DNA of 64,000 nucleotides from Closterium sp. NIES-65 (Eukaryota > Streptophyta > Zygnematophyceae > Desmidiales > Closteriaceae). A program made the position numbers and the translations under genes. This document shows positions 627-63,939 of the stretch, piece after piece; the first letter of the stretch is position 1; every line of letters begins with the position of its first letter. The notes under the pieces were generated by a model. That model did no database searches, was not told the origin of the DNA, and saw nothing but the letters and a program-made list of their open reading frames with translations. The stretch is from assembly GCA_948144175.1 (NCBI GenBank), contig CANXME010002067.1, positions 2,232,001-2,296,000 of the forward strand, read 5' to 3'.

Positions 627-918
627 CTCGAGATTCAGTTATTCAACTGAGATCTCGAGTCAACCCCGAGCACCCTTCGGGATTCCTCGGCACCCCCCGA
701 AACCCACGCGCACCCCTAAGGGGTGCAATCATGCATGACCGACTTTTCGGTCGTGCTGTACAGCGCATTGACGTGCGCTGTCCTGCACGAGGACAGGGCA
801 GTAATGTCCCCTGTCCTGTTGCGATCGTGGGCCCTGCCACGCTCGCAACAGTGCAAGGCGCACGCACGAGGCCTGAGGGGCCATACGCGCGTGTCAGGAC
901 CCCACACGCGGGTCCCTG
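627..918. other. Array of consecutive hairpins
   Basis: Successive short inverted repeats follow each other almost without gaps, each with a different stem. Examples are 627-659 (arms of about 14 bp, loop ATTC), 665-681, 687-700, 710-726 (8-bp arms), 737-752 (GACCGA/TCGGTC), 760-781 (ACAGCGCA/TGCGCTGT), 780-794, 791-816 (GGACAGGG/CCCTGTCC), 818-849 (13-bp arms, one mismatch), 851-863, 870-882 and 895-918. Because the stems differ in sequence, this is not a tandem duplication of one palindrome. It may be a structured RNA, a fold-back element or a cruciform-prone spacer. No coding frame explains it. Confidence 0.6.
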
Positions 919-15600: not shown

Positions 15601-18600
15601 TAGAAAGCTGTACCCCATATGTGCTACCCCACTATAGCCTACAAACATGCATCAGTTATAATAATCCGACACACCCCCATAGGCAAAGTGGGGGAGAACA
15701 AGGGGTCACAAGACCAGTCAAGCAAAGCAAAGCAAAGCAAGCTCAGGGTGGATCACAACGTCACCACACAGTCCGAGCACAAGAGCAGGGCCAGAGGCCA
15801 GTTCACATGCAGGAGTACAGACATATATATAAAACTAGACAAGCAAGAGCCGGTATATATATATGTCACAGTACAAGTGAAGTCAAGAGGAGAGCAAGTG
15901 AGGCAAGACAGGCACAAGACCCAGCTGGGTGCAAAAGCGCTGATGGTCACAAGGCGCGAGTGCCTTGGTGAACACATCAGCAGTGTTGGCCTCAGAGGCC
16001 ACGTACGCAAGTCGCAACTGACCACGCTGCTGCAGCTCACGAGCAAGGAAGTAGCGGAGAGCAATGTGCTTCGTTCTGTGCTCCAAGCGCTGCTCTCGAC
16101 ACAAGGCCAGCATGGCCTTGTTGTCTACGTACAGCACTGGAGGAGAACGAGGCGGCTCTCCAAGGTCAGTCAGCAGGTAGGTGAGCCAGCAAAGCTCCTG
16201 TGCAGCCATGGCCCCGGCGTAGATCTCAGCCTCACAACTGGAGCCGAGAACCGAAGACGAGCGAGTAGACCGCCACGAGACAGAGCCGGAACCAAGGCTG
16301 AAGGTGTAACCCTGTGACGACCGCTGCGTAGCCTGGTCGTCAGCCCAAGAAGCGTCCGCGTGGCCGGTAAGGACCACTGGACTCCGCCCTCCAAGCACTA
16401 GCCCCATGCCCGACGTGCTGCACAGGTAGCGCAATACCCTCTTCGCTGCAGCCATGTGCTCCGGTCTGTGTCTCCCAGGAGCAACATAGCGTGCAAGAAT
16501 GCTCAGAGGGTATGCAAGGTCAGGTCGTGTGCAGGTCATCAGGTACATGAGGCAGCCAACAAGCTCTGCATACGGACCACTCGACTCTACGGACTCATCC
16601 GAAGGCAGAGCTGAGAGTGAGTGGCGAGTAGGCAGAGGAGTGGCCTGAGGCGAGGAGTACGTGAAGCCGAAGCGCTGAAGGACCTGCTGCACCATGTGTG
16701 ACTGAGTCAAGGTAATGGTGCGGCGTGCTCTGTCCCGAGTGATCTGCAAGCCAAGGTAGCTGCGCAGTTCACCCAGGTCTGTGCACGTGTGTCTCTTCAG
16801 CAGCTCGGACTTCACGTAGGCGAGTCCACCAGTGTCTGCTGTGGCAAAGACCAAGTCGTCGACGTACACGAGGATGTAGAACGGCGGCAGGGAAGTGTCG
16901 GTGCGAAGAAACAGCGACGGGTCAGCAGTAGAAGGAGCAAACCCAAGAGCCGCAAGCGTAGTCCTCAGTGTGTCGTGCCACTCACGCGGTGCCTGGCGGA
17001 GACCGTAGACTGGCCGTCGGAGGCTCCACTGGGTGCCAGGAGGGAAAGTCCCAGTGAAGCCAGGTGGACGGCGAAGCCAGATCTCCTCGTGCAGGCTACC
17101 CTGCAAGAACGCAGTGCTGAAGTCGAGAGAGTGAAGCTCGTAGTCGCGCTGAGCGGCTATGTGCAGCAGCACCCGAAGAGTAGTCATCTTCGGGGTGGGA
17201 GAGAAGGTCTGAAAGTAGTCAACTCCCTGCCGCTGACTGAAGCCACGAGCAACGTACCGTGCCTTGAAGACAGGTGGAGTGCCCGGCGGCCGCTTCACCC
17301 TGAAGATCCACATGCCACTGACGATGTTCGCCCCAGGAGGGGGAACCGCGTCAACGTAGGTGCCTGTGGACTTCCAGGAAGCCATCTCTGCATCCATAGC
17401 TGCCTGCCACTGAGAGGAGTAGGGACCCTCTACGGCCTCCGCGTAAGAACGCGGAGTCGGGATGTCTAGTGCATCCGGGTCTCCCTCAGGGGCAAGCAGT
17501 ACAGACGCGAGATGAGGTGAAGCAGCCGCTAGACACTGTAACTCCTCCTGCCTGTCCTCTAGGACGTCCGTGCCAAGAGCACACTCACCCCCGACGGACG
17601 GAGGACAGACAGACACAGACTCAGCAACAAGACTAGCAGCGTAGTCGAGACGACAGCGAGCAGCAAAGTCGACGAGCTCAGCGACTAGAGCAGACGCAGC
17701 AGTGGACTCAAAAGAGGGGTCAGTGACGACAGTAGCAAGCAGACGCGTGACAGTAGGACTGGCAGCACGAAGAGAGTCCGACTCAGGGTCGGCAAGCGCA
17801 GGAAGAGAGGACTCAGGAGGAGAAGGCAAAGGGGCACGCAGAGGAGCAGTGGACGGACGCAAAGACATCCGGTGCGTGCCAGGGACAGGAGGAGGACGCT
17901 GACGCGAACTGCGACCACTAGCGCGAGCAGCACGAACAGGCGACGCGGGACGAGACGCAGGCTCACGACGCTCAGCAAGACCGCCAGTAGGACCAGTGTA
18001 AGGAGAGGGAGCAGGCAGTGGAGAGGAAGGCTCCAGCAGGGACTGCGACTGGACAGGCGGTGGACCCTCTACTGGAGGAGAAAGACTAAGAACCTACTGC
18101 AGGAGCGGAACAAAGTACGGTCGAGGCCGCGCGGCAGCTCCAGACTCAGCAGGGACAGCACCACCACCCTCAGCGACAGCACCAGCGCCACCCACACCTC
18201 CAGCGGCAGGACCAACAGCAGTAGGCTCAGCACCAACGCCCTCAGCAGCTCCAGCTCCAGGAGGACCCGCAGGTCCAGCAGCTCCGGGACCGGCAGCACC
18301 CGCACCCTCGACGGTCGAAGAAGCTCCAGCTCCAGCTCCAGCAGCACCTCCAGACCCAGCAGCACGCCTCCAGCGGCGAGCGAACCACTCGCGCAGCTCC
18401 TGTGGAGAGAGGGGCTCCCGGCGAGACGCAGCAGCAGGAGAAACCCCAGGCTCAGCAGCTCCAGACGCAGCACCCCCAGGCTCAGCAGCTCCCAGCTCAG
18501 TACCCCCAGGCTCAGCAGCTCCCGACCTAGCACCCCCAGACCCAGCACCTCCAGGCACAGCACCCCCCGGCTCAGCACCCCCAGGCTCCGCACCCTCCGC

Positions 18601-21600
18601 AGTAGCACCCCCAGGCCCAGCACCCCCAGCAGTAGCACCCCCAGGCTCAGCACCCCCGCGCACAGCACCCCCAGAGTCAGCACCCCCAGGCTCAGCACCC
18701 GCAGCAGCACCAGAGTCACCAGTAACCTCGACCGGGTCAACGGCGTCTACCTGGGACACACCTGAGGGGGCAGGAACCTGAGGGGGGAGGGGGTCTACCG
18801 GGGGGGGGAACCGGCACAAGGAAGTCCGGGGGAGGGGGGAGGGAAGGAGTGCGGTAGGGGAAGAGACGGTAGAAGGGGACTGACTCGTCGAACGTGACAT
18901 CCTGGGAGGACAGAACACGACGAGAGGAGGGGTGGTAAAACTGCCACCCTGGGGCGTCAGTGGGGAAGCCAAGGAAGACACAGGGAGCAGCACGAGGGGA
19001 CAGCTTGTCCGCAGACAAGTCGCGGACAAACGCCCGAGATCCCCAGACACGGAACACAGACGCATCGCCAACCTTCCCCGTCCACAGCAAGGCTGGGGAC
19101 ATCGCAGGCCGAGAGACCCGGGGGTGAAGGTTGAGCTGATGCGCCGCGTACCTCACCGCAAACGGCCACAGAAAATGGGGGGCAGCCGCATGCATCATGG
19201 ACGTACGAGCGACATCCATGACCATGCCAATGCGGCGCTCAGCAATCCCATTTTGCTGTGGTGAGTCCGGAAGCGTGAAGGTCTGGCGGATCCCCCGTGC
19301 ACGACAGTAGTCCCGCAGAAGGCGAGAAGAGAACTCTCCGCCTCTGTCAGAGTGCAGACGCAGAACAGGAAAGTCCGAGCCGAAGCTCTTCCTGAGCTGG
19401 AGACGAGCCTCGCGGATCCAGTCGATCAGCACCTCAGTGACCGCACCCTTGCTGCGCAAGGGGAGGACTGTGGTGTAACGCGAGTAGTCGTCAACCACCA
19501 ACAGGAAGTAGCGCTCGTAACCCTGCCCACGGACGGGGGCTGGGCCCCACACATCCATGTGAAGCGTCTGCAGGGGAGCCTCTGTCGGGGGGAAGTGGGA
19601 GGAGTGGGGAGTAGCTCGGAGGCGACCCTCGACACAGGGGACACAGGAAGGTCCTGGCCCGGAGGGGAGAGGAGGGAGAGACTGGGGAAGACCAGAGACA
19701 AGGACACAGGAAGCCATGCTCTGAAGACGGGGCAAGGAGGGGTGGCCAAGACGGTGGTGCCACAGGAGAGTCTGGTGAGACAGGAGGCGACAAGAACAGG
19801 GGGCAGACTCAGGACCTGACCGGGACGCAGCAGCAAGCACCTGACCCGACGCAGCCACCTGACCAGACGCAGGGACAGGAGGAGACTCAACGGTCAGGGT
19901 GTAGAGACTCGACCCCGGCCGACGCGAGAACGTGGCCAGGTGTCGGCCTGTGCGTGCCTCCGTGCAGTGGGTCACCCGCTGACTAGCAGGAGTGAACTGG
20001 TGAACCCCCACATCCTGCAGGTCCGCTCCACTCACCAAGTTCGTAGAGAACGAGGGAAGGTACAGACCCGACAGGGTGCCCGAAGGGGCAGCCGGACACG
20101 GGAGGACAGTGGAGAAGTGAGACAGGACAGGACCCCCAGAGGGGTCAGCAAGGGAGACCGCAACCGGCCGGCCGAGCGGCGTAAGGGTAGTGCGGTCTCG
20201 AAAGAAGGAGCGAGAAGCTCCGGAGTCAAGTGTGAAAGTGAGGGAGGACGAGGACGACGCAGTACCTGAGAGCGCAGTCTCACCAGTACCTGAGAGCACA
20301 GACGCACTGGCACCTAGAGCAGCAGCCTCACAAGCACCTAGCGCAGCAGTACCAATGCCCGGGTCGGGCTGGAAACAACGGTAACCCTCATTCTCCTCAC
20401 TATAATCCACAACATACATAGCAGCAAGGATAGCATCAAAATCAAGATCAAAGATCGCTACACCAGCCCGGAGAAGCTCATCCCAGCGAGGGATCTCACT
20501 GGCCCCAGGGAACTGCTGACGCCAAGCGTCCGTCAGGCGGCCAAAGCAGCGCTGGGTGGCATGGGCACCCCCACACAGCTCACCCGCGCGGTCGCCGGAA
20601 CGAAGAACGTAGGTGCAGGGACCAGTACCCCCACCCCTCTGACGCCCAGCGTACCACTCACGAAGCTGCTGAGGCGGAGGGATGTCCCGCGAGCGCTGCT
20701 GCTGCTGCCGCTGCGAGCGCTGGCCACCACCACCGCCGCTACGCTGCTGGGTACCACCTCGACCAGCTCCACCTCCTCCACCACCACCGCCTCCTCCGCT
20801 GCCGCCTCCACCGCCTCCACCTCCGCCGCCTCCACCTCCGCCGCTGCCTCCACCACCACCGCTGGCACCACCACCACCGTCTCCGCCGCTGCTGCCACCA
20901 CCACCACCACCCCCGCCACTAGTCCCGCCGCCACCCCCACTCCCTCCGCCGCCACCGCCGCCACCGCCACCGCCCCCTCCAGCTCCACCCGCGCCCTTGC
21001 CCCCCTTGCCCTTGCTGGAGCGACGTCTCCCACTAGGGGCAGACGCCGCGCCGACCGACTCAAGACCAAGCAGGTCGGCAGCAGCAGCAGAGGCAACAGA
21101 GGGCAGCAAGGGGGAAGGAGAGCACCCCTCAAAGATGGGGGTGCGAGGGTCACCACGAGAAGCACCTACAGCGACTATGCTCTTCTCCGCTGCAAGGAGG
21201 GCCTTCTCGAGGAGGTCGACGGTGAGGGTGGTGGGACAGACTGCGAGAAAGTGGTCCCTGACGACGCGAAGGGAGTCAGGGAGGCGCGCCACTACGTAGT
21301 AGAGAGCGATGTACATGGGGGGGGGGTTCTTAGCGCAGAACTCAGCAGGAAGGGCGGCGCGGTAGCGAGTGTCACTAGTGCGGAGGTGCGTAATGAGGTC
21401 AGCGACAGTGGGAAAGGCAGAGAGGTCAGGAAAGAGGTAGGGAAGCATGAGACGGCTCAGTGCAACAGTGGCAGGGGAGGAGTAGCGCGCAACTACAGCG
21501 TCGTACAAGGTCTGAGCACTCTTGTACTGACTAAAGTGCGCACGCTCAGAGGTAGGGAGGTGGCGACGCACAGCAAGACGTGCAGCAGCATCGCGGGTGG

Positions 21601-24371
21601 CCCACTTAGAGCGGACAGTGGGATCAGCATCAGCAGCAGGAGCAGGAGAGGCGCCAGAGGTGAGGTCAAAGAGAGAAAGGTCGTCAGCCCTGTCGCACTG
21701 TAAGAACAGCTGCAGGTCGTCTAACCAGACCTCAAAATCAATGGCGCGACCCTCAGCGTCAAAAGCTAGGACACTAGGGGTAGCCATGGCGACGACAGCG
21801 ACGCAGTGCAAGCAGTAGGGAAAGAGCTCGCAGTGTCAGTGGGACTGTGCTCACCAGGCAGGGCAGGTCGTGCAGCTATGCAGAAAGGCGGCTCAGCGAC
21901 CAGGCGGCTCGGGTGCACAGCGGCTCGACTCCCGGGCGGCTCGGCGGCTGGGCGGCTCGGGCGCAGGGCGGCTCGGCTCCCGGACGGCTCGGCGGCTGGG
22001 CGGCTCGGGTGCAGGGCGGCTCGGCTCCCGGGCGGCTCGGCGGCAGGGCGGCTCGGGTCCCGGGCGGCTCGGCGTTGGGCGGCTCGGCTCCCGGGCGGTT
22101 CGGCTGCTGGGGCGGCTCGGCCGGGAGATGCAGGGGCGGGGCCGTCAGGTGCAGCGGCGGGTCGACCGGTGCAGTGGCGGGCCGGCAGGTGCAGCGGCGG
22201 GCCGGCAGGTGCAGCGGCGGGCCGGCAGGTGCAGCGGCGGGCCGGCAGGTGCATGCGGCTGGCCGTAGGGTGCAGCGGCGGGCCGTAGGGTGCAGCGGCG
22301 GGCCGGCAGGTGCAGCGACTGGGCCGTCAGGTGAAGCGGCGGGCCGCTGGGTGCAGCGGCGGGCCGGCAGGTGCAGCGGCGGGCCGGCAGGAGCAGCGGC
22401 GGGCCGGCAGGAGCAGCGGCGGGGCCGTAAGGTGAGGCGGCGGGCCGGCAGGAGCAGCGGCGGGCCGTAGGGTGCAGCGGCGGGGCCGTCAGAGGCGGCG
22501 GGCCGCTGGGTGCAGCGGCGGGCCGGCAGGTGCAGCGGCGGGCCGGCAGGAGCAGCGGCGGGCCGGCAGGAGCAGCGGCGGGGCCGTCAGGTGAGGCGGC
22601 GGGCCGGCAGGAGTGCAGCGGCGGGGCCGTCAGAGGCGGCGGGCCGTAGGGTGCAGCGGCGGGCCGTAGGGTGCAGCGGCGGGGCCGTTAGAGGCGGCGG
22701 CGGGGCCGCAGCAGTAGAGGCGGGGCCGCGTCAGGGGAGGCGGCGGGGCCGCGTCAGGGGAGGCGGCGGGGCCGCGTCAGGGGAGGCGGCGGGGCCGCGT
22801 CAGGGGAGGCGGCGGGGCCGCGTCAAGCAGGCGGCGGGGCCGCGATCAGGAGAGGTGGCGGGGCCGCGTCTGAGGGACAGCGGGGCCGCGAGGGAAAAGG
22901 CGACCCGAGGGGTCGCTAAAAAAAAAAAAGGCGCGCCTCGGGGCGCGCTTCGGTGGGCCCTAAAAAAACGGTCCTAAGGCAGGACCCGCTCTATACCATG
23001 TGAAGCAAGGAAAACAGGAATGAAATGACTAAGTCAGAGTTGGGTACAAATGCAACCCTAGAAAGCTGTACCCCATATGTGCTACCCCACTATAGCCTAC
23101 AAACATGCATCAGTTATAATAATCCGACACGAGGGACCGCCCTTGGTCGCGGCAGCCCTGCCGCCGGTGCGCTTTCCGCCACCACGAGCTTCCGGCTCGG
23201 CATGATCCCCCTCGTCGCCTCCATCCGCATCCTGCGCCGGCCTGCCCGAGGGATCGGCCTTAGCCGCGGCAGCCCTGCCGCCGTTGCGCTTTCCGCCACC
23301 ACAGGTAGTGACCGGCTCGGCATGATCCCCCTCGTCGCCCCTATCCGCATCCTGCAAGCCCGAGGGACCGCCCTTGGCCGCGGCAGCCCTGCCGCCGTTG
23401 CGCTTTCCGCCACCACGAGCTTCCGGCTCGGCATGATCCCCCTCGTTGCCTCCATCCGCATCCTGCGCCGGCCTGCCCGAGGGATCGGCCTTAGCCGCGG
23501 CAGCCCTGCCGCCGTTGCGCTTTCCGCCACCACGGGTAGTGACCGGCTCGGCATGATCCCCCTCGTCGCCCCCATCCGCATCCTGCGACTGCCTGCCCGA
23601 GGGACCGCCCTTGGCCGCGGCAGCCCTGCCGCCGTTGCGCTTTCCGCTACCACGAGCGCGTTGGCCTGCCGTCCCATCTGCGAAGGTGGACATTACAGGT
23701 ACATAAGAAATACTGTGCACACATTATCTTATTGGCTGGAAGTTGTAGCATGACATGCGGCGTCATTGTAATGAGTAACGTGCAAAATATAAACCGTCGA
23801 TATCACACCCACAGCGTACCTAAGCTGTCAAGTCCCCCGTCTTTGCCCTCCTCGTTGCCTTCAGACGCAGGCGTTTCCTCACGATGTGAACGAGTGCCTC
23901 TTTTTCTTGGACGGTGCTTACGCCCCCCCCCGGTTGTCACGCTTGTCCGCTGACGCTGATGTGGAAACACAATTGGAGAGACGATAACCTCCAACAGGTC
24001 AGACACGACTACAAGCATCGTTTCATGCATACAAGTAGAATATTCCGCATCTGCGACCATAAACACGTACCTTTCTGGCCGCCTTTGGGAACGAGATCAT
24101 CTAAGCGCTTCACGCGCTTATCCCTTGGTTTCGGAGGGGATGATATGCCCTTGTTTGCGTATGGCTCAACATCGCAGTCGCTATTCGATTCGTCACCGGA
24201 TGACGAGACACGTCTGGAATCAACAACATCTCGCGCCGTCGACGCATTATTTTTGCGATACTCGTTTACGATCTCGGCCGTCTTATCTGCTGTTACTAAC
24301 TCCGCAAAATTTGTTTCGTCGGGGGTTTTAGTCGAATCAGCCAGTACGATCGCCCCCTCGGGCCCCTTCAT
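9666..24371 (-). CDS. Large six-exon repetitive, mixed-charge protein gene, split by a copia insertion
   Basis: My exon model on the minus strand is 24071-24371 (ATG), 23820-24008, 23677-23135 continuing at 15540-13838 once the inserted element is removed, 11614-11857, 10967-11124 and 9666-10802 (stop). All junctions have GT-AG borders and phases that agree, giving about 1424 residues. In order the protein has a polar N-terminus, a basic patch, about nine 37/39-residue repeats (core QDADGGDEGDHAEPEARGGG), a Ser/Glu/Asp-rich acidic tract, an Arg/Lys-rich segment, a short coiled coil (EQLMRELAQRDREIAALKA), an unrecognised globular region of roughly 200 residues over exons 4 to 6, and a mixed-charge Glu/Arg/Lys tail. 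This composition suggests a nuclear protein, but I do not know its function. The copia insertion separates the repeat exon, so this copy is probably disrupted. Confidence 0.6.
9760..10490 (-). repeat. 258-bp coding repeats and (GAG)n tract in the acidic tail
   Basis: Within the last exon of the large minus-strand gene a block of about 258 bp (86 codons) occurs twice in tandem (copies begin near 9776 and 10033 on the plus strand). It is preceded by an uninterrupted Glu-codon tract at about 10365-10475. Because the period is a multiple of three, the frame is kept. The opposite strand reads as long poly-Leu/Ser frames that are shadows. Confidence 0.8.
11125..11613. other. Intron 4 with a G-rich degenerate minisatellite
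   Basis: The intron between exons 4 and 5 of the large minus-strand gene holds an irregular GGGAGGGCRGGAGAGA-type repeat at about 11210-11420. No separate gene is visible. Confidence 0.6.
11858..13837. repeat. Intron 3 with ~120-bp repeats in a ~610-bp duplication
   Basis: The intron between exons 3 and 4 of the large gene is largely tandem repeats of about 115-120 bp. Each contains CGCCGCATGACACCCAC-like and GGGAGGGATGGGAGAGA-like blocks. A larger unit is also duplicated: the same stretch starting CGTACGCCCAGCGCGAGGG occurs near 12312 and again near 12922, about 610 bp apart. Long hydrophobic open frames on the minus strand here come from the repeat and not from a gene. Confidence 0.75.
15012..15540 (-). 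repeat. 117/111-bp coding minisatellite, distal part
   Basis: About four and a half tandem units of 117 or 111 bp (39 or 37 codons) within exon 3 of the large gene. The two lengths differ by a 6-bp, two-codon indel. The matching proximal part lies at 23130-23660 on the other side of the copia element. Confidence 0.85.
15536..15540. repeat. Target site duplication, left copy
   Basis: CGAGG directly outside the left LTR. It matches CGAGG at 23130-23134, as expected for a Ty1/copia integrase. Confidence 0.9.
15541..15671 (-). repeat. 3' LTR of copia A
   Basis: 131 bp, identical by eye to 22999-23129. On the minus strand it starts TGTCGG and ends TTCACA. This is short for a Ty1/copia LTR. Confidence 0.95.
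15672..15681 (-). other. Polypurine tract of copia A
   Basis: On the minus strand TATGGGGGTG directly abuts the 3' LTR, where plus-strand DNA synthesis is primed. The related fragment at 62058-62067 has the same tract. Confidence 0.75.
15883..18093 (-). CDS. Copia A pol, reverse transcriptase and RNase H
   Basis: This stretch copies element RNA into DNA and removes the RNA strand. The frame continues directly from the in-frame TAG at 18094-18096, and the first ATG after it is at 17868. A Ser/Pro-rich linker is followed by the reverse transcriptase, with WIFRVKRPPG, LDFSTAFLQG and the catalytic YVDDLVFA near 16856-16867. The RNase H part has HADASWADD, SCEAEIYAG and VDNKAMLALC and ends in HLLSS. 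The length is normal for the copia RT-RNase H region, and no further lesion is seen. Confidence 0.9.
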   Translation of the reverse strand, partial: VLSLSPPVEGPPPVQSQSLLEPSSPLPAPSPYTGPTGGLAERREPASRPASPVRAARASGRSSRQRPPPVPGTHRMSLRPSTAPLRAPLPSPPESSLPALADPESDSLRAASPTVTRLLATVVTDPSFESTAASALVAELVDFAARCRLDYAASLVAESVSVCPPSVGGECALGTDVLEDRQEELQCLAAASPHLASVLLAPEGDPDALDIPTPRSYAEAVEGPYSSQWQAAMDAEMASWKSTGTYVDAVPPPGANIVSGMWIFRVKRPPGTPPVFKARYVARGFSQRQGVDYFQTFSPTPKMTTLRVLLHIAAQRDYELHSLDFSTAFLQGSLHEEIWLRRPPGFTGTFPPGTQWSLRRPVYGLRQAPREWHDTLRTTLAALGFAPSTADPSLFLRTDTSLPPFYILVYVDDLVFATADTGGLAYVKSELLKRHTCTDLGELRSYLGLQITRDRARRTITLTQSHMVQQVLQRFGFTYSSPQATPLPTRHSLSALPSDESVESSGPYAELVGCLMYLMTCTRPDLAYPLSILARYVAPGRHRPEHMAAAKRVLRYLCSTSGMGLVLGGRSPVVLTGHADASWADDQATQRSSQGYTFSLGSGSVSWRSTRSSSVLGSSCEAEIYAGAMAAQELCWLTYLLTDLGEPPRSPPVLYVDNKAMLALCREQRLEHRTKHIALRYFLARELQQRGQLRLAYVASEANTADVFTKALAPCDHQRFCTQLGLVPVLPHLLSS
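18094..18803 (-). CDS. Copia A pol, Gly/Ala/Pro-rich integrase-RT linker
   Basis: Continuation of the polyprotein after the frameshift at the nine-C run (plus strand 18800-18808). It encodes a low-complexity hinge of GGAEPGGA-like pentapeptides between integrase and reverse transcriptase, and ends at TAG (18094-18096) just after PYFVPLLQ. The next codon continues in the same frame into the reverse transcriptase segment, so only the stop separates them. Confidence 0.75.
18737..21787 (-). CDS. Copia A gag-protease-integrase
   Basis: ATG at 21787 (MATPSVLAFD) is chosen because it begins the conserved gag. An in-frame ATG 8 codons upstream is possible. The gag capsid-like region (about residues 1-230) is followed by roughly 70 mostly Gly residues and a Cys/His cluster (CGGAHATQRC) that may bind nucleic acid. 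The aspartic protease DSGAS is near residue 520. Integrase has a zinc-binding HHRLGH...CVPC (about 675-720) and a D,D,35,E triad in DVWGP, HSDRGGEF and QQNGIAER (about 744, 813, 849). The frame runs out of register at a nine-C run near 18800 and stops at 18737. Eight C would keep pol open. Confidence 0.9.
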   Translation of the reverse strand: MATPSVLAFDAEGRAIDFEVWLDDLQLFLQCDRADDLSLFDLTSGASPAPAADADPTVRSKWATRDAAARLAVRRHLPTSERAHFSQYKSAQTLYDAVVARYSSPATVALSRLMLPYLFPDLSAFPTVADLITHLRTSDTRYRAALPAEFCAKNPPPMYIALYYVVARLPDSLRVVRDHFLAVCPTTLTVDLLEKALLAAEKSIVAVGASRGDPRTPIFEGCSPSPLLPSVASAAAADLLGLESVGAASAPSGRRRSSKGKGGKGAGGAGGGGGGGGGGGGGSGGGGGTSGGGGGGGGSSGGDGGGGASGGGGGSGGGGGGGGGGGGGGSGGGGGGGGGGAGRGGTQQRSGGGGGQRSQRQQQQRSRDIPPPQQLREWYAGRQRGGGTGPCTYVLRSGDRAGELCGGAHATQRCFGRLTDAWRQQFPGASEIPRWDELLRAGVAIFDLDFDAILAAMYVVDYSEENEGYRCFQPDPGIGTAALGACEAAALGASASVLSGTGETALSGTASSSSSLTFTLDSGASRSFFRDRTTLTPLGRPVAVSLADPSGGPVLSHFSTVLPCPAAPSGTLSGLYLPSFSTNLVSGADLQDVGVHQFTPASQRVTHCTEARTGRHLATFSRRPGSSLYTLTVESPPVPASGQVAASGQVLAAASRSGPESAPCSCRLLSHQTLLWHHRLGHPSLPRLQSMASCVLVSGLPQSLPPLPSGPGPSCVPCVEGRLRATPHSSHFPPTEAPLQTLHMDVWGPAPVRGQGYERYFLLVVDDYSRYTTVLPLRSKGAVTEVLIDWIREARLQLRKSFGSDFPVLRLHSDRGGEFSSRLLRDYCRARGIRQTFTLPDSPQQNGIAERRIGMVMDVARTSMMHAAAPHFLWPFAVRYAAHQLNLHPRVSRPAMSPALLWTGKVGDASVFRVWGSRAFVRDLSADKLSPRAAPCVFLGFPTDAPGWQFYHPSSRRVLSSQDVTFDESVPFYRLFPYRTPSLPPPPDFLVPVPPPGRPPPPSGSCPLRCVPGRRR
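21788..22998 (-). other. Copia A 5' leader with GC-rich minisatellite
   Basis: The 1.2-kb untranslated leader between primer-binding site and gag is nearly all ~20-bp repeats (plus strand GCGGCGGGCCGGCAGGTGCA) and variants. Next to the primer-binding site are three hairpins: 22900-22916, 22931-22948 and 22970-22986. Runs of A on the plus strand (T on the element sense strand) separate them. Leader hairpins in LTR elements often serve dimerisation or packaging, which would be an inference here. Confidence 0.7.
22983..22998 (-). other. Primer-binding site of copia A
   Basis: Immediately inside the 5' LTR the sense strand reads TGGTATAGAGC. This matches the complement of the initiator tRNA-Met 3' end (TGGTATCAGAGC) except for one missing base. 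Confidence 0.7.
22999..23129 (-). repeat. 5' LTR of copia A
   Basis: 131 bp, identical by eye to the 3' LTR at 15541-15671, and followed by the CGAGG target duplication at 23130-23134. Confidence 0.95.
23130..23660 (-). repeat. 117/111-bp coding minisatellite, proximal part
   Basis: The upstream portion of the repeat in exon 3 of the large minus-strand gene, about four and a half units. These units carry GKRNGG where most distal units carry GMRNGG, so the two sides of the copia insertion have partly homogenised subtypes. Confidence 0.8.
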
Positions 24372-45657: not shown

Positions 45658-47878
45658 TGTTCACCCCCAAAGGGAAGAGTGCGTCTGGGACCAAGGGAGG
45701 CAGCATCAGTGGGCGGACGCGTGTGCAAATCTGTAGTGGGAGCATTAGAGACCAACTATCATGGTTCGAAATTCGAGTCACACGAAGCTATGCACGAGGA
45801 GGAGGGAGTATCTGCACCAGTGCGAATGCGAATCCACTGGGGATGTAAGGTGCCGCAGATCTGGCGGAGAGAGGATGTAGTGTTGAAATGTAGAAACCCT
45901 GTTTGTGCTAACACCTGGAGGTACCTACTAGGTTACGTGCCTCGTCCTATGATCACATTCACATCTCGTCGTGGCATCTTCCACTTTTGCAGCCACCCAT
46001 AACTGCCAAACTGAGTGTAAGGCGTCGTGATTATGTGCTTGTTCAACAGTCAGGACTACCCCAATTGGTTTCATTTGCTTTCACTAATTGTAGTGGCTGT
46101 TTCTTGCAGCATTGTGAAATAGTTCGATGTTAAAGTTCAGTAGCTTCTTTCTGGTGTGCTCACAATCAAGCACCTTCTAGAATAGGTAGCTTGTATCACA
46201 AACGACATATCAGCATGTCATGTTCAATCATCCCTCTCCTACATTTTAGTTCAGTTCTTTTTTTAGTTAGTTTCACGGCACCCTTTTCATGCGCTCTATC
46301 GCAATGGTTTGATTGTATCCGCCTTATATGCAGCCATACTCATGTGTCCATAAATTGAGGTATTGTTTTTCTTGCTGTATTCTATGTTCCTGTGCGCCCA
46401 TACACCCTTTGTATGTTGTATCATTAGGTTTATTGACGACAATTCTCTCAGTGGGTCTATTCCATCCACCATCGGTAGCCTGAGCAAACTCGAGACATTG
46501 TGAGTATCGTGAAGGGAATAGGAAAGAAAGCCAACATGACGTCGTACGTGTTCAGAAATTAGAGGGACTGCGATGGCGACACCAAGTCAACTTGATTTGA
46601 GAACGAGCATATATGCTAGGCATGACCACGGGCTGACACTGGGTTGAGCTAGCCCGCTAACCCAGGGCCTGGGGGGCGGCCTATGGTAGGTCGGTTCTAC
46701 AGCAAGTTTGCCAAAGATCTGCAGCAAGGCGACTAGTTGGTGGGCTCAGACCATGATACAACTAATCACTGTACATGAATTTTCTGCAGCAAGCTGACCC
46801 AACAGGCCGGGCTAGTAATTGCCAGGCTGAGATCGACAAGCGGTACATGCATAAAGGGCAGTCTGGAACGTGTTCCAAACAGGCTGGCCCAACCACGCTG
46901 TCCCACGCCATTCAATTTGAACTACGTCATGACTAGAGGGTCCAAGCTCGGCCATATGAGCATTTGGACCTGTTGGAAATGACTCACAAATGCAAGGCTC
47001 CCACGAATGGTGGGTTTGAGCATAGGCCTATGACCATCTTAGTCGTTACATTGCACAACGAACTGACTGGCCGACGTGATGAGTGGGCAGTTAATTAGGC
47101 CTGTGGCTCATCTATGATATGCAAACCAATCGAGCCAGAACGAGCTTGTATTCCTCGCCACAATCTGTCAAATCCGCATGGAGATGACGGTTTGCAGAAA
47201 CCGGTTCCTTCCAATCAGATCCACGACAATGAGCATCTCGCCTGTCTAAGTCGTGTGGACATGGCCTCAAACATGCCCATCTTGGACCTCATATTTGGTC
47301 AAACCTAAGGGGGCATTTTTTTTTTTTTTTTTTTTAGCAGGAATCCTCTCATCAAACGTAAGCTAGCCTTTTTGGTAAACAAAAACAAAAACAAAACAAA
47401 AACAAAATCAAAGCAAAACAAAACAAACATAACAGCCCCAAAATAAAATATCTAAGCTTACAGACATACTGAATTTAGCAAGCCGGTCTGTGATAGAGAG
47501 GTATGCTGCAAGGAGGCAGGCTGGGGGTCGCCCACTAATTTGCACAAGGATGGCAATACTCTGGTTTGATCCGTGTGGATCTGGCAAAGAGCATAGGACT
47601 GGCCATAGTGCATGCCCTTTCTGCAGTGCAGAGAGATGACCGTGCTTGCAAACTGGCTGGCCCGATCGTGTTGGACATGCAAGAAGTTTTGCACAATCGG
47701 GCACAGTCAGCCCGTTTGCAACAGAGGCTGGACCGACCTTGCATGTCCTAGTTCAGCCATATGAACATGGCTAATGTACTCATGAGACATGACGCCCTTG
47801 ACTGGGAGTGTGCTTATGTTCCATTCACCCTCAGTCATGGCAGAAATGTAGTGTGTCACATCAAGGTCGAGCTAGCCC
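45584..47878 (+). repeat. Direct segmental duplication, copy 1
   Basis: About 2.3 kb nearly identical to 50727-53437. It includes the LRR exon, a GGGCCTGGGG motif, a T22 run near 47315 and an (AAAAC)n stretch. It lacks about 435 bp that copy 2 has at about 51017-51452. A further partial copy (about 46640-46880) recurs at 47876-48103. Confidence 0.85.
46428..46499 (+). CDS. Leucine-rich-repeat exon, copy 1
   Basis: A 72-base exon between TTAG and GTGAGT, phase 2 at both ends, encoding FIDDNSLSGSIPSTIGSL and a short tail. This is a plant-type extracellular LRR. It is paralogous to the exon at 52007-52078 inside the duplicated segment, with the same frame and exact length. Confidence 0.65.
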
Positions 47879-50723: not shown

Positions 50724-52006
50724 TCCACAAATAATGGAGACTGGTATGGCATCATTCTCAGCAGCTGGGTCCTAGGAGGAAATGTGGATGAGTAATGTTC
50801 ACCCCTGGAGGGAAGAGTGCGTCTGGGACCAAGGGAGGCAGCATCAGTGGGCAGACGCGTGCGCAAATCTGTAGTGGGAGCATTAGAGACCAACTCTTGT
50901 GGTTTGAAATTCGAGTCACACGAAGCTATGCATGAGGACGAGGGAGTATCTGCACCAGCGCGAATGCGAATCCACTGGGGATGTAAGGTGCCGCTGAACT
51001 GGCGGAGAGAGGATGCAGTCATTCCTCCTGTGCGCCCACAGCGACCTGTCACCGTCGTGAGCCGGTCCATCTCGCCACTCACAGTGGTGAGCAGGATTTG
51101 CTGCGAATTGCTCCACATTAGCCTCACTATATGGTCCCGAAATATCCTGGCGGTAAGATACAAGGGCAACGTCATGTGCATGTTTATGCACATTGACAAT
51201 AATATGAAGGGTTGGTCGATCTGTCTATCATTATCTTGTGTCAAAATGCTAATATTTGGCTACTCTAGCACATCATTCACTAATTAAGTGCCATATGTAC
51301 AACTGGTTATCCACTTTGGCCACTGGACATCATCGGTCTGCATGCTGCACTCCTCACTGCTTCTTTGGCTCTATGTGTTTGTGTGCTTGCATAGCATTTT
51401 GGACCAGCACCCCTTATGATATCTCCTGTTGCCCCTTAAAAAAAAATGTTACATAGTGTTGAAATGTAGAAACCCTGTTTGTGCTAACACCTGGAGGTAC
51501 CTACTAGGTTACGTACCTCGTCCTATGATCACATTCACATCTCGTCGTGGCAACTTCCACTTTTGCAGCCACCCATAACTGTCACACTGAGTGTGTGTAA
51601 TGCGTCGTGATTATGTGCTTGTTCAACACTCAGGACTACCCCGATTGGTTTCATTTGCGTTCACTAATTGTAGTGGTTGTTTCTTGCAGCATTGTGTAAT
51701 AGTTCGATGTTAAAGCTCAGCAGCTTCTTTCTGGTGTGCTCACAATGAAGCACCTTCTAGAGTAGGTAGCTTATATCACAAATCACATATCAGCATGTCA
51801 TGTTCACTCATCCTTCTCCTACATTTTAGTTCAGGTCTTTTTTTTTTTTTAGTTTCATGGCACCCTTTTGATGCGCTCTGTAGCAACGGTTTGATCGTAT
51901 CTGCCTTATATGCAGCCATACTCATGTGTCCATAAATTGAGGTTATGTTTTTCTTGCTGTATTTGTTTCTGTGCGCCCATACACCCTTTATATGCTGTAT
52001 CATTAG

Positions 52007-52078
52007 GCTTCTTTACGACAATTCTCTGAGTGGGTCTATTCCATCCACCATTGGTAGCCTGAGAAAACTCGCGGAATT
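52007..52078 (+). CDS. Leucine-rich-repeat exon, copy 2
   Basis: A 72-base phase 2-2 exon encoding LLYDNSLSGSIPSTIGSL plus RKLAEL, with TTAG acceptor and GTGAGT donor. It differs from copy 1 (46428-46499) at several residues but has no frame damage, consistent with both being used as alternating LRR modules. Confidence 0.65.
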
Positions 52079-52347
52079 GTGAGTATCGTGAAGGGAATAG
52101 GAAAGAGAGCCAACATGACGTCGTACGTGTTCAGAAATTAGAGGGATTGCGATGGCGACACCAAGTCAACTTGATTTGAGAACGAGCATACATGCTAGGC
52201 ATGACCACGGGCTGGCGCTGGGTTGAGCTAGCCCGCTAACCCAGGGCCTGGGGGGCGGCCTTTGGTAGGTCGGATCTACAGCACGTTTGCCAGGGATCTG
52301 CACCAAGGCGACTAGTTGGTGGGCTCAGACCAAGATACAACTACTCA

Positions 52348-52887
52348 TTGTACATGAATTTTCTGCAGCAAGCTGACCCAACAGGCCGGGCTAGTAATTG
52401 CCTGGCTGAGATCGACAAGCGGTACATGCATAAAGGGCAGTATGGAACGTGTTCCAAACAGGCTGGCCCAACTACGCTGTCCCACGCCATTCAATTTGAA
52501 CTACATCATGACTGGAGGGTCCAAGCTCGGCCATATGAGCATTTGGACCTGTTGGAAATGACTCACAAATGCAAGGCTCCTACGAATTGTGGGTTTGAGC
52601 ATAGGCCTATGACCAGCTTAGTCGTTCCATTGCACAACGAACTGAATGGCCGACGAGATGAGTGGGCAGTTAATTTGGCCTGTGGCTCGTCTATGATACG
52701 CAAACCAATCGAGCCAGAACGAGGTTGTATGCCTCGCCACAATCTGTCAAATCCGCATGGAGATGCCAGTTTGCTGCAACCCGTTTCTTCCAATCAGATC
52801 CACGACAATGAGCATCTCGCCTGTCGAGTTCGTGTGGACATGGCCTCAAACATGCCCATCTTGGACCTCGTATTTGGTCAAACCTAA
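52348..52887 (+). CDS. 179-codon open frame in duplication copy 2
   Basis: An uninterrupted frame of 179 residues. The matching stretch in copy 1 carries two stops (TAG for Trp at about 46935, TAG for Leu at about 47097). The protein has no motif I know (contains FELHHDWRVQARPYEHLDLL). It could be a decayed gene or a chance frame. Confidence 0.2.
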   Translation: MYMNFLQQADPTGRASNCLAEIDKRYMHKGQYGTCSKQAGPTTLSHAIQFELHHDWRVQARPYEHLDLLEMTHKCKAPTNCGFEHRPMTSLVVPLHNELNGRRDEWAVNLACGSSMIRKPIEPERGCMPRHNLSNPHGDASLLQPVSSNQIHDNEHLACRVRVDMASNMPILDLVFGQT

Positions 52888-53436
52888 GGGGGCATTTTTT
52901 TTTTTTTTTTTTTTTAATCAAGGATCCTCTTATCAAACGTAAGCTGGCCTTTTTTGTTAAACAAAAACAAGAACAGAACAAAATCAAAGCAAAACAAAAC
53001 AAAAACAAAACAGCCCTAAAATAAAATATCTAAGCTTACTGACATACTGAATTTAGCAAGCCGGCCTGTGATGGAGAGGTCTGCTGCAAGGAGGCAGGCT
53101 GGGGGTCGCCCACTAATTTGCACAAGGATGGCGATATGCTGGTTTGATCCGTGTGGATTTGGCAAAGAGCATAGGACTGGCCATAGTGCATGCCCTTTCT
53201 GCAGTGCTGAGAGATGACCGTGCTTGCAAACTGGCTGGCCCGATTGTGCTGGACATGCAAGAAGTTTTGCACAATCAGGCACAGTCAGCCCGTTTGCAAC
53301 AGAGGCTGGACCGACCTTGCATGTCCTAGTTCAGCCATATGAACATGGCTAATGTACTCATGAGACATGACGCCCTTGACTGGGAGTGTGCTTATGTTCC
53401 ATTCACCCTCAGTCATGGCAGAAATGTAGTGTGTCA

Positions 53437-53940
53437 CATCCAGCCCCCCTTCCCCCTCTCCTGCATGCTTTCCACTCACTCCAGCCCCGCTTCCCCCTCT
53501 CCTGCATGCTTTCCACCTACTCAAGCCCCCCTTCCCCCTCTCCTGCATGCTTTCCACCCACTCCAGCCCCGCTTCCCCCTCTCATGCATGCTTTCCACTC
53601 ACTCCAGCACCCATTCCTCCTCTCCTGCATGCTTTCCACTCACTGAAGCCCCCCTTCCCCCTCTCCTGCATGCTTTCCACTCACTCCAGCCCCCCTTCCC
53701 CCTCTCCTGCATGCTTTCCACCCACTCCAGCCCCGCTTCCCCCTCTCCTGCATGCTTTCCACTCACTCCAGCCCCGCTTCCCCCTCTCCTGCATGCTTTC
53801 CACCCACTCCAGCTCCCCTTCCCCCTCTCCTGCATGCTTTCCACCCACTCCAGCCCCGCTTTCCCCTCTCATGCATGCTTTCCACTCACTCCAGCCCCCC
53901 TTCCCCCTCTCCTGCTTGCTTTTCACTCACTCCAGCCCCC
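53437..53940. repeat. 41-bp minisatellite
   Basis: About twelve copies of a 41-bp unit containing CTCTCCTGCATGCTTTCCAC. Since 41 is not a multiple of three, all frames cycle through each other and remain open, giving misleading long peptides. Confidence 0.95.
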
Positions 53941-54212: not shown

Positions 54213-54275
54213 TAGCAAATTCCGCTCACGCGGAATCCGATCCTTGGCGTCGCGATCATTCTCTTCCTCTCGGCT

Positions 54276-55056
54276 ATGGCGTTCTCGGTTCACGCCTTCT
54301 TCGCTTTGCGTTTTTCGTCTTCACATCGTCGCACTGGTCAAAAGCGCTTTCCCGCTCCGTCTACGTGCATTTCCGATTTCCACGGCGGCACATTTCTCCG
54401 TTTCCATGACAAGACAGCAGTGGGTGTTGCCATCCTCATCCCTCGAATGTTCCAGGTCTGCCTTGAGGAATGCCCTGGCATGGCAGATTGCATCTCTGAA
54501 ATCCGCAACATCCATGAGGAACTCAAGGACATTGGGATCATTTTCCCCGAACAGGCACCTGCAGCTGGCCTACTTGTAGGACTGACCCCGACCTACAATG
54601 TCACCAGCTCCATGCTCAAGCAACTTTCCACCAAGGAACTCACCTTCCAAAAAGTCGCATCGGCTCTCCTTTCCGCCGAAAAGGACTTTGCGGCCCAAGC
54701 ATCCGTCAGTGCTGTGCGCTACACCCTTCGAATCCCATTCCGCTCCCAACAGGAACCAAGGCGCAACTCCCTCAGTTGATAACACCCCATCTGATATTCG
54801 CCTCAACGTGTTGTTCTCAGGTGCTGGTCTTATTAATGAGAAGGGGTCACAGTACATCGGTGTTTCAAACACACAAGGGATCGAGTTCATACTAGACAGT
54901 GGTGCCACCCACACAGTGCTCAAAGACCAAACCGCGTTCGTTCCTTACCAGGCTCCCATCCCACTCCTCGGAGCCGACTCTAGCTTCTCCATCCAATGCC
55001 ATGGGTCCTCCACAGGAAACTCGAGCGAGCATTTAGAAAAGCTCGTCCGACTATGA
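54276..55056 (+). pseudogene. Copia C gag-protease remnant
   Basis: Two overlapping frames (54276-54779 and 54598-55056) carry the gag helices and the DSGATHT protease respectively. A frameshift near 54700-54780 separates them, and no integrase follows. Confidence 0.65.
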
Positions 55057-55479: not shown

Positions 55480-55851
55480 TGTCAGAATCCCAACCACTAG
55501 ACTATTGGGATAAAAAGGCTTGTTTCAGTAATGGGTCAGTGCGCCCATAACCCCCCAGGCGAACGCGCCTGTAACCCTCTCCAGGATCAATCGGGCATCC
55601 ACAGTGCAGATCTACTAACACCCTCCCACACTGGGAGGCCTAGAACTAAGCACAGCAGCAACGGCCTACATGTGCATACACCGGGAATCGAACTTGAGAC
55701 CGCTCTGATACCATGCTAGAATCCCAACCACTAGACCATTGGGATAAAAGGGCTTATTAAGTAGCGGGTCAGTGCGCCCATAACCCCCCAGGCCAACGTG
55801 CCTGTAACCCTTCCCTAGGATCAATCGGGGATCTCCAGTGGACCTCTGACA
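55480..55851 (-). mobile_element. Miniature LTR retrotransposon (TRIM), copy 1
   Basis: LTRs at 55480-55620 (141 bp) and 55714-55851 (138 bp) flank a 93-bp interior. On the minus strand the interior starts with the exact initiator tRNA-Met primer-binding sequence TGGTATCAGAGC and ends in a purine-rich tract. No coding capacity. A further diverged interior-like stretch (55852-55926) follows directly, so this is a tandem LTR-interior-LTR-interior array and not a simple insertion. No matching target duplication was found. Confidence 0.8.
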
Positions 55852-56170
55852 CCCCCCTGCACTGAGATGCTCAAGGTGCACAGAGTGGGATTCGGACACT
55901 GACATTAGCTTTGAGTACCTTACCAATGTTATCGCTCCTAGACTCGCGCGGAAACTTAGTTGTCTGTGACGTTGGTCGTAACTGGTATAGAATGACTAAT
56001 CGACGAGTTCCATAAATGCTTGTCTAAAAGCAAGCGAGTACTCGTTGAGCAAAAAAAACTTAATGAGTAAAACTCGCTTCTACTCGTAGGAGTAAAATAT
56101 ACAAAAACCTAAACTCGTTACTCGCACCCAAACGAGTAACTCGGGTGATACCGAGCGAGTAACTCGTCTC
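55852..56170. repeat. Diverged TRIM interior, then ACTCG-rich palindromic sequence
   Basis: 55852-55926 resembles the TRIM interior. After it, 55960-56170 is dense in ACTCGT/ACGAGT motifs of the kind found in the hAT-like element at 58149, possibly a decayed relative. Confidence 0.4.
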
Positions 56171-61770: not shown

Positions 61771-62215
61771 AAGGAGCACTTCCGCCTTGTGATCATCAGC
61801 GCTTCTGCACTCAGTTGGGTCTTGTCCCTGTCTTGCCTCACTTGCTCACCTCTTGACCTTGCTTGTACTGTTACATATATATATACCTGCTCTTGCTTGT
61901 CTAGCCTTATATATATATGTACTCCTGCATGTGAACTGGCCTTGTGGCCTTGTACTTGTGCTCGGAATGTGTGGTGACTTTGTGATCCACCCTGAGCTTT
62001 GCTTTGTTTTGCTTTGCTTGACTGGTCTTGTGACCCCCTGTTCTCCCCCACTTTGCCTATGGGGGTGTGTCAGAACATTATAGCTTATGCTTTTGTGTAG
62101 GTTGTAGTGGGGTATCCCATAGGGGGTACAACCCAATTAGGGTTAGTACTTGTACCCACTTCATTCATAGTTCATTCATTCTCGTTTCAGTTTTCTCAAG
62201 AACTTCGTTTGCACA
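61771..62215 (+). mobile_element. Copia family A 3' end, plus strand (A')
   Basis: It starts in the last RNase H residues (CDHQRFCTQLGLVPVL) and continues through the same 3' untranslated sequence as the full element, including a TATATATA stretch. It then has the TATGGGGGTG purine tract (62058-62067) and an LTR at 62068-62215 (148 bp, TGTCAG to TTGCACA). Divergence from the full copy is substantial, so it is an older insertion. Confidence 0.8.
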
Positions 62216-63559
62216 ATTGGCGTCATGCAGCAGATCATGCATGTGACGACGAGGTGATGTGTGCATACGGTTATATCTTGTTGTCTTCGTGTACACTCAA
62301 AAGAAACTGCGTCTGCGTGAGAGAATTTTTGTCGTGGGCAGCACATTTCTCGTCACGCAACCGATTACGCCTCTGACGAATACGAAAATATATGCTCGCG
62401 AGTATATTTTTGTTGTTGTGGGAAAGTACGTGTAGGTTTTTTGTCGTGCGACAGATCACGCTTCAGACGAGGTGTAGGTATGCACACGATGTATTTGTCG
62501 TTTAAAACTGCTGCAAAGGTTTCCAAACCCAACAGATAAGAATGCGCAAAGGCTCACCCCGTGCACAAGGTAAAAAGGATCCTGTGCTTAACAAATAAAT
62601 TTCCCTGACCCATGTTAGCACACCTAAGACACGATTCGCACAGGGTTAAAAGTCCCTACCATACAAAGCGTTTGCACGTGTAAAAAGGACGTGTAAAAGT
62701 TGCGAGTACTGAATGTGTGAATGCGCGAGGTAATCATTTATCTTGGGGGTGACAAACGCTGTACAATGGTGTCAGACATGAAAATGACGCCACTGATGCA
62801 TGTGGTGTTGCTCGTGGAAAGGTGTAAAAAACATCGTCCGCAGGAAAAATGCTTGTCGAGGAGAAGTTCCGTGTACCGAAAAATATACCGTATCTTTTGC
62901 GAATGTCATATGCCAGCATCCCAATGCGATGATGAATGCAGCGTGTACAGTATTTGTCGAGCACGTTGACAAGGTGCGCTGTACACGACCAGCCAGGTGC
63001 ACGCGCGTCACATGTGGCAACAAAAGTTGCGCGTGGGGCTAACAAGTTCTGCGCACGAACACAATCTGCGCCACTGGTTGTCCAGAATTTGTGCGTGTAC
63101 GGGCAAGATAACGCGGACAGTTACAGCATGAGTGTGTTCCAAAAACAACATGCGCATGAGCATGGGATGGGACAACGGTGTCAGGCATGAAAATATCATG
63201 CTACAGTTGTATACCCATGTGGTGTAAAGAAATTCATCTAAATTTTCTTCTACTCCTAAAGATTGCCCTTTGAAGCATGATTTGGTGAGGCAAAAACTAT
63301 TTGAGGAGGTGTGTGTACAGTCTGCACACGAATTTTTATTGTCGTTTGTACGTTGACAAATGTTCGTTTTCGTCCGTTGCGTTGGCGTGATCCGACAACG
63401 GCGGGCAAATGCAAGGACGTGGTGCGAAACGCCTCCGCACCGTACGGAAAGGGTCCCGACGGCTCGTAACCACTCACCACCGATTTGCACAACGGGAAAC
63501 GCATGTTCCGCGTAAGAAAAATTGCGTCGTGTGGGCATGTTCAGACTCTCGTTCGCAGC
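62216..63559. other. No supportable gene
   Basis: Unassigned DNA rich in GTGC/CACG dinucleotide-type repeats. Short overlapping frames only. Confidence 0.45.
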
Positions 63560-63564
63560 AGTTC

Positions 63565-63939
63565 TGTCAGAATCCCAACCACTAGACCATTGGGATAAAA
63601 GGGCTTGTTTCAGTAGCGGGTCAGTGCGCCCATAACCCCCAAGGCGAACGCGCTTGTAACCCTCTCCAGGATCAATCGAGCATCCACAGTGCAGATCTAC
63701 TGACACCCCCCCACACTAGGAGGCCCAGGACTAAGCACAGCGGCACCGGCCTACATGTGCATACACCGGGAATCGAACCCGAGACCGCTCTGATACCATG
63801 TCAGAATCCCAACCACTAGACCATTGGGATAAAAGAGCTTGTTTCAGTAGCGGGTCAGTGCGCCCATAACCCCCCAGGCGAACGCGCCTGTAACCCTCTC
63901 CAGGATCAATCGGGCATCCACAGTGCAGATCTACTGACA
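63565..63939 (-). mobile_element. Complete TRIM with target duplication, copy 2
   Basis: A 375-bp element with two 141-bp LTRs (63565-63705 and 63799-63939, starting TG and ending CA) and a 93-bp interior. AGTTC flanks both sides (63560-63564, 63940-63944). On the minus strand the interior begins with TGGTATCAGAGC, the exact initiator tRNA-Met complement, and ends in a G7 purine tract. No protein is encoded, so it must rely on enzymes of an autonomous copia element. An A box in the LTR and a B box in the interior resemble tRNA-Glu. Confidence 0.9.
63768..63823 (-). promoter_or_regulatory. tRNA-like A and B boxes across LTR and primer-binding site
   Basis: The sense strand reads TGGTCTAGTGG (63813-63823) and then GGTTCGATTCCC (63768-63779), separated by 33 bases. 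tRNA-Glu has nearly the same spacing. Pol III use is an inference. Confidence 0.5.

Follow-up and report, generated by a model that had tools for sequence, protein, structure and literature searches.

The question raised by this locus is whether a short retroelement that carries no protein of its own could be transcribed by Pol III from a tRNA-like promoter of which one box lies in the LTR and the other in the interior, with the primer-binding site (PBS) between them. The element, here called E1, lies in a window of 64 kb (the whole stretch of DNA that was analysed; G+C 54%, CpG 0.70 of expectation), together with a second copy, E2, and a larger Copia element (Table 1).

Anatomy of the element and of its second copy

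E1 displays everything by which a TRIM is recognised: two LTRs, a total length (375 bp) below 1000 bp, a PBS, a purine tract and a target duplication, AGTTC, directly adjoining each end. An earlier note on this DNA, which had described a complete TRIM with 141-bp LTRs, a 93-bp interior and the AGTTC duplication, was right in these respects and in its coordinates, and the LTR identity proved to be 97%. Its description of the element as protein-free held as well: no mobility proteins were found in the 375 bp, and the single open frame that partly overlaps them (63011-63715, minus strand, 235 aa) has no Pfam match at E values up to 0.01. The PBS, TGGTATCAGAGC, presumably fits plant initiator-Met tRNA.

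Table 1. Positions of the TRIM copies, their promoter-like motifs and the Copia element in the 64-kb window.
Feature	Position	Strand	Remarks
E1, complete TRIM	63565..63939	minus = sense	LTR pair 97% identical over 141 bp; AGTTC both flanks
E1 5' LTR	63799..63939	minus	141 bp, TGTCAG...CTGACA
E1 3' LTR	63565..63705	minus	141 bp; carries A box
E1 interior	63706..63798	minus	93 bp
E1 PBS TGGTATCAGAGC	63787..63798	minus	first bases of interior
E1 purine tract GGGGGGG	63706..63712	minus	interior end, before 3' LTR
E1 A box TGGTCTAGTGG, then TTGGGATTC	63813..63823	minus	end of 5' LTR; exact
E1 B box GGTTCGATTCC	63769..63779	minus	interior; exact
TTTT in E1 5' LTR	63831..63834	minus	seven bases before A box
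TTTT in E1 3' LTR	63597..63600	minus	seven bases before A box; putative Pol III terminator
CAA, proposed start region	63839..63841	minus	A63840 17 nt before A box; putative role
23-base run GGGGGTTATGGGCGCACTGACCC	63852..63874	minus	longest invariant run in 4 LTRs; upstream of proposed start; contains TTATGG
E2, second TRIM copy	55480..55851	minus	91% identical to E1; no target duplication
E2 A box	55728-55738	minus	exact
E2 PBS	55702-55713	minus	
E2 B box AGTTCGATTCC	55684-55694	minus	one mismatch, first G lost
Copia element	15541-23130	minus	identical ~131-bp LTRs; CCTCG both sides; PBS TGGTATAGAGC directly after 5' LTR
Copia integrase match	18740-21835	minus	Pfam, above cut-off
Copia RVT_2 match	15886-18093	minus	Pfam, above cut-off

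The order and spacing of boxes and PBS in E2 are those of E1. No target duplication was found around E2, whose flanks are CTGAC and CCCCC, and its 5' LTR is a diverged form that agrees with the region of the E1 3' LTR at 86.7% of 150 aligned columns, a dozen bases past the LTR being counted in. E2 is therefore a possible recombinant. Within 55714-55880 a purine-tract-like sequence, GCAGGGGGG, precedes the diverged LTR, and the copy may have been left by recombination between related elements, as these two features and the missing duplication would suggest. An older second interior upstream of E2, seen by eye, was discarded: 113 of 2000 shuffles reached its local alignment score of 28, and the top score among 790 control windows was 42.

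Two tRNA-like boxes on either side of the primer-binding site

On the sense strand of E1 an A box, the PBS and a B box follow one another, with 33 nt separating the boxes, as the earlier note had reported. E1 holds the only exact A and B pair with a spacing of 20-80 nt on both strands of the 64 kb; none appeared when the window was dinucleotide-shuffled 200 times or the element shuffled 20000 times. If one mismatch is tolerated in the B box, the real pairs are two in number and coincide with the two TRIM copies, as against 19 pairs from the 200 shuffled windows and 3 from the 20000 shuffled elements. The A-box consensus by itself is unremarkable in the window (17 sites against 18.6 expected). 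When 42 PBS-like sites (at most 3 mismatches) were scanned, the two TRIM copies alone combined an exact A box in the preceding 40 bases with a downstream B box that departed from the consensus by one base or none. A tRNA-like promoter sequence does extend over the junction of LTR and PBS, and chance is an unlikely source of it.

The distribution of the boxes among the LTRs is uneven. All four LTRs of the two copies have the A box and none has a B box, the best match having 3 mismatches of 11. A B box lies downstream of both 5' LTRs, with no mismatch in E1 and one in E2, and none was found in the 120 nt that follow each 3' LTR (best 3 mismatches). Since no LTR contains a B box, the complete pair arises only from the 5' LTR of a full element, and solo and 3' LTRs are left without a full promoter because the B box sits outside the LTR.

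Across the four LTRs, the block from TTTT to GGATTC, which was picked post hoc, has 1 variable column in 31, compared with 27 in 111 elsewhere (p 0.009), and the single variable column remains within the A-box consensus. A longer invariant run, of 23 bases, is found in another part of the LTR (Table 1). The two predicted 244-nt transcripts differ at 18 positions, none of them in the A box or the PBS and one in the B box; these figures come from two non-independent copies (four LTRs), which are too few to settle conservation.

E1 does not score as a tRNA gene. ARAGORN found no tRNA genes in the window, and the Rfam tRNA model, which aligned to 63824-63765 with both boxes in register, gave 15.6 bits against a cut-off of 29 (E 1.8) and was outscored in the same table by another sub-cut-off family on the opposite strand; with E2 it gave no match up to E 10. 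The likeness to tRNAs nevertheless extends past the boxes, as judged from ten tRNA sequences, the best of which gave 53 identities (an animal Glu), 52 (a plant Gly), 50 (a plant Gln) and 48 (a plant Glu), values so close that the isotype is uncertain. Of the earlier statement that the arrangement is as in tRNA-Glu, the spacing thus stands (33 in E1, 32 in a tRNA-Glu), whereas the assignment to Glu is not decisive, as Gly and Gln score alike. In our reading, the LTR terminus and the PBS occupy the place of the tRNA anticodon arm. A tRNA-like fold was rejected as support: an arm formed by the LTR end and the PBS (TCTGA/TCAGA) is possible, but its z score is -0.45 and 61 of 200 shuffles were as good; it is further weakened by the E2 5' LTR, which has TCTAG at this place.

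Pattern scans for relatives of the TRIM in viral and prokaryote contigs returned one match, in viral contig L001, where a short tRNA-like intergenic stretch (830-905, minus strand) has TGGTATCAGAGC and GGTTCGACTCC enclosed by the arms GAACTG and CAGTTC; a similar stretch lies near 1010-1060. Nothing resembling an LTR pair was visible by eye in 601 bases, and the match was taken as unrelated. As the collections consist of viral and prokaryote records, absence from the scanned contigs says little on a eukaryote.

A transcript model and its rivals

Each LTR of E1 and E2 has a single T-run, 4 or 5 bases long, which ends seven bases ahead of the A box, and TTT is found nowhere else in either copy; the earlier observation of a TTTT just upstream of each A box was confirmed for E1 at 63834-63831 and 63600-63597. 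The absence of inner T-runs is ordinary, as 82% of 5000 shuffles and 58% of 2552 window segments have no TTTT. An RNA 5' end near 63830, as had been proposed, would fall after the T-run and give no end repeat. Because reverse transcription needs equal bases at both RNA ends, the start must precede the T-run and has to be sought upstream of 63834. Transcription from A63840 to 63597 would give an RNA of 244 nt with the ends AAGCTCTTTT and AAGCCCTTTT. This A lies in a CAA, a motif present within 50 bases upstream of 78-82% of flowering-plant tRNA genes and, in about 36-45% of them, 10 or fewer bases upstream, where it is the usual start site in Arabidopsis (excerpted text of PMC11700998). The E2 5' LTR has TAA in its place. 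A T-run shortly after the start could abort Pol III, and TTATGG, 29 nt before A63840, with the CA would suit Pol II as well.

From these motifs we infer that E1 may be transcribed by Pol III, in which case the cycle would run as follows. The end of the LTR would provide the A box and the interior the B box, both bound by TFIIIC. Initiation by Pol III would take place before the T-run, with A63840 or its vicinity as the likeliest site; transcription would then pass through the PBS, the interior and the greater part of the 3' LTR and terminate at the single T-run of that LTR (63600-63597). The ends of the predicted 244-nt RNA would share about ten bases, a repeat that would serve strand transfer, initiator-Met tRNA would prime reverse transcription, and a Copia-type element would supply the proteins for copying and inserting the TRIM RNA.

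The Copia element of the window is a possible helper. It has the type of PBS and the 5-bp duplication in common with the TRIM, though not the LTR, and the identity of its two LTRs points to a recent transposition. When its LTR and the first 151 bases of its interior were searched, the closest A-box matches had 1 mismatch (one of them being the PBS itself) and the closest B-box match had 4, so the boxes of the TRIM are not simply shared with it. A Pfam scan of 30 open frames gave Copia domains above cut-off in two frames, and a Myc_N match below cut-off. Long low-complexity tandem repeats with steps of 15, 16, 20 and 23 bases lie within or near the Copia element. A copia-type gag match at 54216-54776 on the plus strand (26.7 bits) falls just under the Pfam cut-off of 27. 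Near the TRIM, the 412-base stretch 61776-62187 is 85% identical, in opposite orientation, to 15554-15963 in the 3' region of the Copia element and is probably a Copia remnant, judging from this similarity. The window also contains 2-kb direct repeats (45878-47865 and 51454-53443, 93.7% identical), with shorter related repeats around.

A split tRNA-type promoter driving Pol III transcription of the TRIM is, in our view, the best explanation overall, and we give it an even chance of being correct. In its favour are the TRIM anatomy, the exact pair set against the shuffles, the order and spacing kept in E2, the register of the tRNA model, the A box in four of four LTRs with a B box only after the two 5' LTRs, the low variation between TTTT and GGATTC, a T-run position that suits end repeats and the lack of the boxes in the Copia element; against it stand the changed B box and the lost CAA of E2, the small number and non-independence of the copies, the post hoc choice of the conserved block, the early T-run, the suitability of TTATGG/CA for Pol II, and a tRNA model that stays below cut-off for E1 and finds no match in E2. 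The same changes in E2, the low tRNA model score and the TTATGG 29 nt before a CA, which could serve Pol II, would also fit a TRIM of the usual kind, transcribed by Pol II, in which the boxes survive from a fossil tRNA gene or tRNA-derived SINE and no longer serve any purpose. We consider this rather unlikely, though a serious contender, as both boxes of E1 are exact and the A box has stayed within its consensus in all four LTRs while 27 of 111 other columns vary. That the likeness to tRNA boxes is fortuitous appears very improbable indeed: the ordinary frequency of the A-box consensus agrees with chance, whereas the absence of the exact pair from all shuffled windows and elements and the similarity to tRNAs beyond the boxes do not.

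We also doubt that the copies simply belong to Helenus, the TRIMs with tRNA-derived LTR sequence described from fungi, animals and Selaginella moellendorffii (Kojima 2024, PMC10886601, excerpted text), with a split that is minor or already present in a plant Helenus. Helenus-1_SMo of S. moellendorffii is indeed similar in size, with an LTR of 120 bp, an interior of 85 bp and 5-bp duplications (excerpted text of PMC10886601). Helenus is defined by tRNA-derived sequence in the LTR, however, and the same excerpts place both boxes of Helenus in the LTRs and mention no interior box B, whereas no B box was found in any of the four LTRs here; Helenus-1_SMo entered this comparison by its description only. 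E1 is not filed as Helenus because it does not have both boxes in the LTR.

With the split promoter retained as the preferred explanation, a fuller formulation can be offered tentatively. The two copies may represent a TRIM family in which a Pol III promoter of tRNA type comes together nowhere but at the junction of 5' LTR, PBS and interior, with an A box in every LTR and a B box in the interior alone, so that only full elements, and neither solo nor 3' LTRs, would be transcribable. The PBS would replace the anticodon arm, and the T-run would act both as terminator and as the end of the strand-transfer repeat.

Relation to known short retroelements

The earlier suggestion that a tRNA-like counterpart of Cassandra would be undescribed does not survive, as Helenus has already been published (Kojima 2024, PMC10886601, excerpted text). 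The split over the PBS may be new, tRNA-like promoters in TRIMs being already known; no TRIM promoter divided in this way was found among the literature matches listed (titles and abstract openings). If the model is true, such a split would be an alternative to a promoter housed in the LTR, and so a second solution to combining Pol III transcription with replication through LTRs. In that case some 70 bases would accommodate the promoter, the primer site and the end repeat together, a solo LTR would be inert, and the arrangement would hint that a tRNA gene or SINE had been captured where LTR and interior meet. If the host is a plant, E1 would extend the plant record of tRNA-like TRIMs, which so far names one species (PMC10886601, Table 1, excerpted text).

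E1 is a real TRIM with a tRNA-like promoter, and three kinds of element invite comparison. Judging from the excerpted text of PMC10886601, it resembles Helenus in TRIM size and anatomy, in its PBS, purine tract and tRNA-like A and B boxes, and in its 5-bp duplications, which are those of fungal and plant Helenus; it differs in that box B of Helenus comes from the LTR and that of E1 from the interior, after the PBS, and in that the PBS of many fungal Helenus fits a tRNA anticodon loop, whereas that of E1 is the common TGGTATCAGAGC. A and B boxes of tRNA type also head the short non-coding tRNA-derived SINEs, which are without the LTRs, PBS and purine tract that E1 has. With Cassandra, E1 shares a Pol III-type promoter in a TRIM, the same PBS (excerpted text of PMC7215508) and an RNA model with short end repeats, which are stated to be of 18 bp in Cassandra RNA (introduction of PMC10886601, excerpted text). 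The promoter of Cassandra is of 5S rRNA type and that of E1 of tRNA type, and at the gathering threshold Rfam gave no match in the window, to a 5S family or any other. E1 would work like Helenus and Cassandra.
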